This document shows positions 29,900 to 32,424 of a stretch of 33,932 bases of DNA, piece after piece. The first letter of the stretch is position 1, and every line of letters starts with the position of its first letter. The translations under genes were made by a program, and so were the position numbers. This stretch comes from Deltaproteobacteria bacterium. Lineage in GTDB: Bacteria > Desulfobacterota > Desulfuromonadia > Geobacterales > DSM-12255. The notes beneath the pieces are model-generated. The model was not told where the DNA came from. It saw nothing but the letters and a program-made list of their open reading frames with translations, and did not search any database. The stretch covers positions 1-33,932 of the forward strand of contig JAJZTK010000028.1 of NCBI GenBank assembly GCA_021849045.1, in the 5' to 3' direction.

Positions 29900-30571
29900 T
29901 CAGCTCCCCACGGGCGGCTCGACAGCGAGCAGCGGCAGGGCCAGCAGCTCGGCGAACTCCCGGATGCGGATGGTCGCCCCGTCCAGTTCCGTTGGTTCAC
30001 CATAGCCATAGCTGCAGCCGATGGTCAGCACCCCGGCAGCCACGCCAGCGGCCACGTCGTTGATGCTGTCTCCCACCATGATCGTTTCATCCGCACTGCA
30101 GCCACAGACGCGCATGACATGCCTGAGCGGTTCCGGAGAGGGCTTGCGGGCCGGCAGGGAATCGGCACCGTATATGCCTGTAAAAAAGCCGTCGAGGTGA
30201 AGCAGTTCCAGCACCTTGCGGCAGAGGGCTTCGTTCTTGTTGGAGACGACAACGCTGGTGAAACCGCGGGGCGAGAGGAGTTCGAGGGTCTCCCGGACCC
30301 CGTGATACGGGACCGTCCGGTCGGCGATATGCTCCTCGTTGTATGCGAGGAAGAGCGAGAGCCCCTGCTCGATGTCCGCGTCCGGCGCACCCGGGAGTGC
30401 CCGTTCCACCAGGTTCCTGGCCCCCTGTCCCACCATGCCGCGCACAGCTTCGCGATCGAGGGGATCGAGACCGAAGGAGGACCGCATGCGATTCACCGCC
30501 TCGGTCAGGTCGTCCAGTGAGTCGATCAGGGTCCCGTCCAGGTCGAATATGATAAGCTTGATAGTTGACAT
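29900..30571 (-). CDS. gph: HAD phosphatase, phosphoglycolate phosphatase type
   Basis: A 223-residue HAD hydrolase. Motif I is FDLDGTLIDS (D10, D12), the C1 cap is helical (about 15-85), motif II is VVVSNKN, motif III is KPSPEPL, and motif IV is MVGDSINDVAAG. These match Gph, which removes 2-phosphoglycolate formed during DNA repair or oxidative damage; pyrophosphatase PpaX is an alternative. The frame opens at a TTG at 30583, but the ATG at 30571 gives the normal N-terminus. It is the first gene of an operon with mreD-mrdA-rodA. Confidence 0.85.
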   Translation of the reverse strand: MSTIKLIIFDLDGTLIDSLDDLTEAVNRMRSSFGLDPLDREAVRGMVGQGARNLVERALPGAPDADIEQGLSLFLAYNEEHIADRTVPYHGVRETLELLSPRGFTSVVVSNKNEALCRKVLELLHLDGFFTGIYGADSLPARKPSPEPLRHVMRVCGCSADETIMVGDSINDVAAGVAAGVLTIGCSYGYGEPTELDGATIRIREFAELLALPLLAVEPPVGS

Positions 30572-30590
30572 CGGCGTATCCAAAAACTGA

Positions 30591-30612
30591 GGGGCAATTT
30601 AAGAATTGCCCC
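30591..30612 (-). terminator. Hairpin, probable terminator after guaA
   Basis: Perfect 9-bp stem GGGGCAATT (30591-30599) / AATTGCCCC (30604-30612) with a four-base loop. On the minus strand it is followed by TCAGTTTTTG, so it can stop leftward transcripts from guaA. It lies just 20 bases upstream of gph. A TATAAA box at 30629-30624 lies upstream of it, so any gph transcript from there would pass through the hairpin. Confidence 0.55.
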
Positions 30613-30682
30613 TGTCTAATTCCTTTATAGATTTGCTATTCCCCAGGTTTGTCAGGTTAGGAAATTGCTGCACAGCTATGAA

Positions 30683-30834
30683 GCCCCGTTAGGGGCGCTC
30701 GCCTGTAGCCGGGGGATTCATCCCCCGGATGTTTGCCGATATATCTCTGCGTCACGTACGTGACGGGAGTGGCATTTTGCCAAGACGACCGGGGAATAAA
30801 TTCCCCGGCTACAAGCATTCTGTCCCTACGGGAC
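30683..30834. repeat. REPIN-like element: inverted pair of GTAG-headed hairpin units
   Basis: Two similar units face each other. The left unit has a small hairpin, GCCCC/GGGGC (30683-30696), an 8-nt spacer, GTAG and an 8-bp stem CCGGGGGA (30705-30728). The right unit, on the other strand, has GTCCC/GGGAC (30834-30822), a spacer, GTAG and stem CCGGGGAA (30812-30789). Between them is the perfect 16-bp palindrome CGTCACGTACGTGACG (30750-30765). GTAG heads and inverted pairing are hallmarks of REP elements mobilised by RAYT transposases. No RAYT gene is in the window. Confidence 0.8.
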
Positions 30835-30861
30835 GTAAGATAAAACCTAACTGATGCGGAC

Positions 30862-32424
30862 CTATTCCCACTCAATGGTGGCCGGTGGTTTGGAACTGAT
30901 ATCATACACCACCCGGTTCACCCCTTTCACCTCGTTGATGATCCGGCTGCTTATGCGGGCCATGTCCTCATAGGGAAGCGGATACCAGCCGGCGGTCATG
31001 AAATCCTTGGTCTCCACCGCCCGCAGGGCAACGACATACTCGTACGTCCGGCCATCCCCCATGACCCCTACGCTCTTCACCGGCAGGAACACGGCAAAGG
31101 CCTGACTGATCTTGTCGTAGTGGCCGGCGGCATACAGTTCCTCGATGTAGATGGCGTCCGCCTGGCGCAGGATATCGGCATACTCCCTGGTGACCGCGCC
31201 GAGGATCCGTACCCCCAGACCGGGGCCGGGAAAGGGATGACGCCAGACCATCTGGTGCGGCAGTCCCAGCTCTTCGCCGATGGCCCGCACCTCGTCCTTG
31301 AACAGCTCCCTGAGCGGCTCCAGGAGCTGCAGCTTCATATGCTCCGGCAGGCCGCCGACATTATGGTGGCTCTTGATGTTGTGCGCCTTGCCGGTCTTGG
31401 CCCCGGCCGACTCGATCACGTCGGGATAGATGGTTCCCTGGGCCAGCCACCGGGCATCGGTCAGTTTCAGCGACTCTTCCTCGAAGATCTCGACGAACAG
31501 GGTGCCGATGATCTTCCGCTTCCGCTCCGGGTCGCTGACCCCGGCCAGGGCGGAGAGAAAACGCTCCTCGGCATCGACCCGGATCACCTTGACCCCCAGG
31601 TTTTCGGCAAAGGTGGCCATCACCTGATCACCCTCACCGAGCCTTAGCAGGCCGTTGTCCACGAAAACGCAGGTAAGCTGGTCACCGATGGCGCGATGGA
31701 TCAGGGCCGCGGCCACCGAAGAATCGACCCCGCCGGAAAGACCGAGAATCACTTGTTCGCTCCCCACCTGCCTGCGGATGCGCGCCACGGCATCTTCAAT
31801 GATGTGGCCCGGAGTCCATTGGCCGGTACAGCCACAGATCTTGCGGACAAAGGTATCGATAAGCAGCTCGCCGCGCGGCGTGTGGTTGACCTCGGGGTGG
31901 AACTGCACCCCGTAGAGGCGACGGCCGACATCCTGGATGGCGCAGACCGGGGCATTGGCCGTCTCGGCCACCACCTCGAACCCGGCCGGCACCCTGGAGA
32001 CATGGTCGCCGTGGCTCATCCAGACCGGGCTCTTCCCCTCGACAAAGAAGCCGTCAAACAGCGGTCCCGGCTTGCCGGCGGCATGCAGGTCGGCGTGGCC
32101 GAACTCCCTTTTGCCGGCCGGCACCACTTCGCCACCAAAGTGACGACTCATCAGCTGCATGCCGTAGCAGATCCCCAGGACCGGCACCCCCAGTTCGAAG
32201 AGCTCTTCGGTCACCGCCGGGGCTTCCGGCTCGTAGACCGATTTGGGACCGCCGGAAAGGATGATGCCGGTCGGGGCAAAGGCGCGGATCGTTGCCAGAT
32301 CGAGGTCGAACGGATGCAGCTCGCAGTAGACATGCGCCTCGCGCACCCGCCGGGCAATGAGCTGGGTATACTGGGAGCCGAAGTCGAGGATCAGTATCTT
32401 TTCACTGTGGATGTCGCTGGACAT
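30862..32424 (-). CDS. guaA: GMP synthase (glutamine-hydrolysing)
   Basis: Converts XMP, ATP and glutamine to GMP. The 520 residues have the normal two-part layout. A class I glutamine amidotransferase domain (10-200) has the catalytic Cys 86 in GICYGMQ and His/Glu in FHPEVNHT. The ATP pyrophosphatase domain has the loop [13 protein letters not shown] (about 230). The C-terminal dimerisation domain ends in [14 protein letters not shown] precedes the ATG at 32424. It lies 91 bases after guaB in the same direction, with a REPIN-like repeat between. Confidence 0.97.

Follow-up and report, generated by a model that had tools for sequence, protein, structure and literature searches.

A REPIN-Like Element With a Conserved Central Palindrome Between guaA and gph in a Member of the Geobacterales

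Organization of the Element Between guaA and gph

We identified a hairpin-palindrome element between the genes guaA and gph in the window, the whole stretch of 33,932 nucleotides that was analyzed, which is contig C59 of draft genome G000 (Geobacterales; 4.33 Mb, 271 contigs). The element at 30683-30834 consists of two inverted halves, each with a small hairpin and a GTAG hairpin, around CGTCACGTACGTGACG, the longest perfect palindrome of the window. Both this arrangement and the position between guaA and gph had been given in a preliminary description of this DNA and were confirmed by direct reading of the sequence; the two genes lie on the minus strand. The features of the locus are as follows.

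29900-30583, minus strand: gph-like HAD phosphatase gene, downstream of guaA and in the same direction (assigned from the open reading frame and the character of its sequence)
30635-30643: left copy of the target duplication, GCTATTCCC, matching CCTATTCCC at 30861-30869 in 8 of 9 positions
30644-30661, plus strand: left terminal inverted repeat, CAGGTTTGTCAGGTTAGG, which differs from CAGCGTTGTCCGGTTTGG at 4 of 18 positions
30683-30696: left small (foot) hairpin, GCCCC-GTTA-GGGGC
30705-30728, plus strand: left REP, GTAG (30705-30708) and the hairpin CCGGGGGATTCATCCCCCGG (30709-30728)
30751-30764: central palindrome, GTCACGTACGTGAC (14 bp); with the flanking C and G it forms the 16-bp CGTCACGTACGTGACG (30750-30765)
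30789-30812, minus strand: right REP, the hairpin CCGGGGAATAAATTCCCCGG (30789-30808) and then CTAC (30809-30812), which on the minus strand read GTAG and CCGGGGAATTTATTCCCCGG
30822-30834: right small (foot) hairpin, GTCCC-TAC-GGGAC
30843-30860, minus strand: right terminal inverted repeat, degenerate (TCCGCATCAGTTAGGTTT on the minus strand)
30861-30869: CCTATTCCC, the right copy of the target duplication, which overlaps the stop codon of guaA
30862-32424, minus strand: guaA (GMP synthase), with the element inserted at its stop codon

The two halves, described earlier as having hairpins with similar spacing, follow the same hairpin plan with spacers of 22 and 24 nt between the GTAG hairpin and the 14-bp core, but the stems of their hairpins differ in sequence. 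The core hairpins do lie within 30683-30834, whereas the whole element reaches further. Because the left end reads GCTATTCCC followed by CAGGTTTGTCAGGTTAGG and the right flank carries CCTATTCCC across the guaA stop codon, the full extent of the window copy is 30644-30860 (217 bases). Compared with dinucleotide shuffles, the element folds strongly (z -4.8; 0 of 200 shuffles as good). A terminator-like hairpin with a T tract is located at 30590-30613 (minus strand), between the element and gph.

An element is also present at the same guaA stop-codon target in G. argillaceus (G007), a congener of the window genome (locus L326, contig C19, around position 1341), where it is flanked by the duplication GCTATTCCC/ACTATTCCC. 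Its ends, CAGCGTTGTCCGTTAGG and CAGCAGTGTCCGGTTAGG, are intact and its arms stand in the opposite order to those of the window copy, reflecting either an inversion in place or a site that was hit twice. In G001, G002, and G005 the guaA-gph region is without the element, and the other genera have none there.

Copies of the Element and Conservation of the Central Palindrome

The window genome contains 10 copies of the palindrome (8 exact and 2 with one mismatch), compared to 1 for a reversed control pattern. All 10 lie inside such elements and none, at up to one mismatch, is free-standing. A palindrome arising by chance was ruled out by this excess over the control and by its presence in REP pairs. 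Using a 181-base query, three more (nearly) full copies with 88-93% identity and several diverged ones were found in the window genome, and the copy at C264:10367 has only one recognizable half. As had been anticipated, pairs of the unit are present at numerous loci; the majority of GTAG hairpins in G000 and G007 are paired with another or adjoin a palindrome, doublets outnumbering singlets. Palindrome copies among the matches listed numbered 33 in G. argillaceus and 37 in G050, a relative with a single 5,136,364-bp contig; for such copy-rich genomes all counts are among the matches listed, many genomes are incomplete, and copies within one genome are not independent. Distances of 38 or 111 bp separate neighboring palindromes at L077:6132-6183 and L083:1785-1909, a pattern resembling an internal duplication of parts of the element. 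A scan of public sequences for the palindrome together with a hairpin returned 74 stretches, in which the named groups are Geobacter-type, Geotalea or Desulfuromonadaceae and the rest Deltaproteobacteria. Most genomes of the order are without the palindrome.

Since a scan for palindrome plus hairpin presupposes the palindrome, pairs were also searched without requiring it. Inward-facing GTAG-hairpin pairs with any gap of 45-75 nt occur in 13 of 141 genomes of the order, representing 7 genera (control 0). The preliminary description had asked whether the palindrome is always present, and it was central in 59 of 59 REP pairs that were fetched (48 exact, 11 with one mismatch; 13 genomes, 7 genera). 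This search, being independent of the palindrome, rules out a search artifact. A looser scan of all loci retrieved, allowing inward pairs with gaps of 30-110, yielded 91 distinct pairs, of which 70 have the exact palindrome, 12 have it with one mismatch, 6 have exactly GTCGCGTACGCGAC, 2 are one step from GTCGCGTACGCGAC, and the remaining one has the center GTCGCTACGCGAC, the foot-hairpin form. GTCGCGTACGCGAC, a symmetric double change at positions 4/11 that is present in 8 genomes including G098, is the only recurrent alternative center.

Information content amounts to 1.5-2.0 bits at the palindrome positions, 1.22 bits at the adjacent base and at most 0.72 bits in the flanks from -2 outwards, and a pyrimidine-rich tract is mirrored on both sides of the palindrome (72-91% pyrimidine at -1 to -7). 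The flanking spacers of different subfamilies are unrelated while the palindrome is identical; as judged from this sequence comparison, the 14 bp are therefore under a sequence-specific, dyad-symmetric constraint. The palindrome belongs to the inner core of the element and not to the outer layer described in the next section.

An origin of the element as two inverted copies with once-identical arms was rejected, as left and right spacers are alike only at chance level (1 of 59 exceeds the 99% level of the null). After clustering of the arms by average linkage (single linkage at 70% merges nearly everything), spacer types were seen to reassort; arm cluster 10, for example, is paired with clusters 13, 7, 3, 5, and 6. 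Both arms belonged to one cluster in 0 of 86 elements. A tendency of REP dimers towards unlike halves is explained in the text of PMC3733652 by avoidance of long perfect hairpins.

A perfect 5-bp hairpin lies 4-14 nt upstream in 175 of 249 distinct REP units (null 4%). The stems of these foot hairpins are mostly GTCCC, GCCCC, GTCGC or GTCAC and the commonest loop is GTA, and they take the form GTCCC/GTCGC/GTCAC-GTA-GNGAC. The center, GTC[A/G]C-GTAC-G[T/C]GAC, corresponds to this motif with a four-base loop. The likeness is a resemblance and not proof of common recognition, and it could have arisen by convergence.

Terminal Inverted Repeats and Target Duplications

Many copies, including the one in the window, are larger than the core: at 217-219 bp they carry terminal inverted repeats and are flanked by 9-bp target duplications. 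Copies in G050 end on both sides in CAGCGTTGTCCGGTTTGG. This genome has 15 distinct CAGCGTTGTCCGGTTTGG-ended MITEs (mostly 219 bp and near-identical) with 9-bp direct repeats, perfect in 12 of the 15; three of them have altered or other interiors without the exact palindrome. Over all genomes, end repeats were present on both sides of 25 palindrome elements, and the adjoining 9-mers of 22 of these are identical in at least 7 of 9 positions (random pairings 0.7%). G050 also contains an IS of about 1335 bp that encodes an IS4-family transposase, has 9-bp duplications of its own and has its ends in common with the MITEs; the right-end 25 bp of the MITE are 92% identical to the IS end. This partner IS was found only in G050 and none was located in the window genome. 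Ends shared with an IS4-family IS (in G050) and a constant 9-bp duplication are both characteristic of IS4-type MITEs. Compared with the IS4-type ends, the window copy has 4 of 18 differences in its left repeat, a degenerate right repeat and a duplication matching in 8 of 9 positions.

Movement of the IS200/IS605 type leaves no target duplication, and the copies with duplications were therefore inserted by DDE enzymes; the terminal inverted repeats combined with 9-bp duplications indicate insertion as MITEs. REPINs are expected to move as single-stranded DNA without target duplication, whereas the window copy and the other copies with terminal inverted repeats have 9-bp duplications. The original identification as a REPIN holds for the GTAG REP doublet of the core, but this doublet is only a portion of the mobile unit at this locus. 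Outside it lie terminal inverted repeats and a target duplication of 9 bp, and the unit thereby bears the signature of a DDE (IS4-type) MITE rather than of RAYT/IS200-type movement.

G050 also has MITEs whose interiors are unrelated but whose IS4-type ends are the same and which are flanked by 9-bp duplications (L342:159-336 and L344:151-369), and a MITE with the 9-bp duplication AACCAGCAT is split by some 1.9 kb of sequence in which a further transposase-like frame lies (L338:191-2271).

A second subfamily, with a CCCGGCG hairpin, ends in TTCTACTTTGTCA and probably has 4-bp duplications (7 of 16 perfect vs. 1.25 expected, p < 5e-5). No partner IS for the TTCTACTTTGTCA ends was identified in the loci examined; one 2.3-kb pair of these ends is present at L138. 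Among elements that have neither of the known end types, none showed a terminal inverted repeat with 9-bp duplication, the same as the null. Neither outer repeat type is present in 59 palindrome elements, some of which are decayed and some true bare cores.

A Y1 Transposase Gene Is Associated With the Core

In the window genome, a gene for a 150-aa Y1 transposase lies among hairpin units at C86:22810-23259. Close relatives (65-100% identity) are present in 10 of 141 genomes, with a single close copy in each. The exact palindrome is present in nine of these 10 genomes, and each of the 10 has either it or the symmetric variant: G098 has a close Y1 gene and no standard palindrome, but it has the GTCGCGTACGCGAC variant. 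The co-occurrence gave Fisher p-values of 9.7e-8 (exact) and 8.6e-9 (exact or variant), which are optimistic as the genomes are related. Thirteen genomes have the palindrome but no close Y1 gene; several of them are incomplete and some may hold relics. Full REP-palindrome-REP units without outer repeats lie directly beside the Y1 gene in G102, G088, G050, and G098, and a similar bare tandem array of units is present in G083.

Against NCBIfam models, the Y1 protein scored 73.8 bits for IS200/IS605 TnpA (cut-off 55) and 21.7 bits for REP_Tyr_transpos (cut-off 80), and its PDB matches are to the ISHp608 transposase (E 2.6e-9). By these scores the predicted protein is closer to IS200/IS605 TnpA than to canonical RAYTs. 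The suggestion that a matching RAYT gene might be found is borne out to the extent that a Y1/IS200 gene with a matching distribution lies inside the unit arrays, but this gene scores below the RAYT cut-off.

Comparison With Known Repeat Families

Like REPIN/BIME elements (Bertels and Rainey, 2011; PMC3116915), the family is dispersed and multi-copy and consists of intergenic, inverted GTAG-tagged REP doublets at a fixed short spacing, with arrays adjoining a Y1 gene. Unlike them, it has an invariant 14-bp center and extra foot hairpins, and many copies have DDE-type ends and target duplications. REPIN spacers are said there to be less conserved, what is critical being their length and pairing, and the REPIN descriptions contain no central palindrome, in agreement with the earlier remark that it falls outside the usual REPIN description. 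Di Nocera et al. (2013; PMC3733652) reported GTAG-tagged REP families, including one of G. uraniireducens, with heterodimers and structured spacers. The hairpins are probably the same as the present ones and likewise form head-to-head dimers of unlike hairpins, but the passages on them, figures aside, mention neither a universal central palindrome nor 9-bp duplications. With IS4-family MITEs the present elements share terminal inverted repeats, the 9-bp duplication and, in one relative, the ends of a full IS4-family IS; they differ in that their interior is a conserved REP-palindrome-REP core which also occurs outside MITEs. Literature searches returned no paper joining Geobacter with REPIN and RAYT or G. 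uraniireducens with MITE and IS4, and the literal 14-mer only in an unrelated paper; figures or supplements of PMC2700814, PMC2996986, and PMC3733652 may still show the palindrome.

A Proposed Two-Layer Element and Alternative Explanations

The element is probably built of two nested layers, a REPIN-type core whose spread is linked to Y1 and IS4-type MITE ends around it, with the palindrome as a symmetric recognition site. In the inner layer, GTCACGTACGTGAC has on each side about 23 nt, then a GTAG hairpin and, outermost, a foot hairpin, and this core most likely spread with the single-copy IS200-like Y1 gene around which the bare tandem arrays lie. The outer layer comprises the terminal inverted repeats and 9-bp duplications, and copies with this layer inserted as non-autonomous MITEs, most likely through an IS4-family transposase acting in trans, as suggested by the IS of one relative that shares these ends. 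REP movement and the function of the REPIN middle are standing questions on which this family bears. Its center, a dyad-symmetric 14-mer that stays invariant over 7 genera or more, together with its likely Y1 transposase gene beside bare copies, provides a directly testable third site. The presence of the same core inside cut-and-paste MITEs offers REPs another way of spreading and cautions against assuming that every REP doublet is RAYT-mobilized.

Since the palindrome retains its sequence and dyad symmetry amid neighboring sequence that turns over, it most likely serves as a symmetric recognition site. Our favored, though unproven, proposal is that the Y1 dimer of the core or a partner would recognize the palindrome as one more instance, the third, of the foot motif GTCNC-GTA-GNGAC. 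In folding predictions, a long REP-to-REP pairing and separate local hairpins have nearly equal energies (-40.9 vs. -39.4 kcal/mol), and so, speculatively, a center hairpin held by a protein could favor two presented GTAG hairpins. Tentatively, the element may be seen as a REPIN with a central operator, in which one core is served by two unrelated transposition systems (Y1/HUH, acting on single strands, and DDE MITE) and the palindrome would be a third site, akin to the foot hairpins, that the Y1 dimer must bind and at which unlike halves would reassort, never with their own kind.

It is possible, though doubtful, that the palindrome serves the host instead: a dimeric DNA-binding protein would bind it in double-stranded form as an operator or nucleoid site, and the mobile element would have dispersed this site. 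The perfect dyad, the conservation that is sequence-specific and not of structure only, the symmetric 4/11 change and the mirrored pyrimidine tract would all suit such a site. The sites of the window genome, however, are all 10 inside elements with none free-standing, and the presence of the palindrome tracks the Y1 gene, most genomes of the order being without it. IHF sites are AT-rich and asymmetric. The E. coli RIB/RIP elements, in which IHF binds between two REPs (Boccard and Prentki, as related in PMC6006769), provide a precedent with a protein-binding-type sequence centered between inverted REPs, but the present center is a GC-containing perfect palindrome which by eye is not IHF-like.

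A role in RNA, with the element as a structured guaA 3' element that stabilizes, terminates or processes the message and the palindrome as its apical stem-loop, is unlikely. The strong folding, the location between co-directional genes and the resemblance of the halves to the candidate RNA Acido-Lenti-1, which exceeds the cut-off only in some copies at Y1 loci or in arrays, are consistent with it; yet in the palindrome it is the sequence that is conserved, a single pair change being tolerated, while other hairpins vary freely with compensation, no terminator-like signal lies inside the element (the sole one, at 30590-30613, is outside), and the orientation of the element at guaA is reversed in G. 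argillaceus. Very unlikely is a MITE only, in which REP hairpins and palindrome would be passengers and their apparent conservation would reflect the youth of the copies: the inverted repeats with 9-bp duplications, the near-identical 219-bp copies in G050 and the unrelated interiors with the same ends in that genome would fit, but the palindrome is identical between subfamilies whose spacers have no similarity, its variant is symmetric, and the same core is found within two MITE types that differ in their ends as well as in bare arrays beside the Y1 gene.

Similarity of the Halves to a Candidate RNA

The Rfam family RF01687 (Acido-Lenti-1) is a candidate RNA of Acidobacteria and Lentisphaerae (PMC2864571). 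Both halves of the window element score below its cut-off of 37 bits, the left half (30682-30728, minus strand) with 30.9 bits and the right half (30789-30835, plus strand) with 28.5 bits. Units of relatives at some Y1-gene loci or bare arrays score above it (38.6-39.9 bits); RF01687-like units are located at L203:852-897, L204:1448-1493, and L286:1541-1586 and 1706-1751. Acido-Lenti-1 and the present unit are both two-hairpin units with a GGCUA junction, but the present unit is half of a mobile DNA element. The match suggests that the listed candidate RNA Acido-Lenti-1 may be a REP-type mobile DNA unit.
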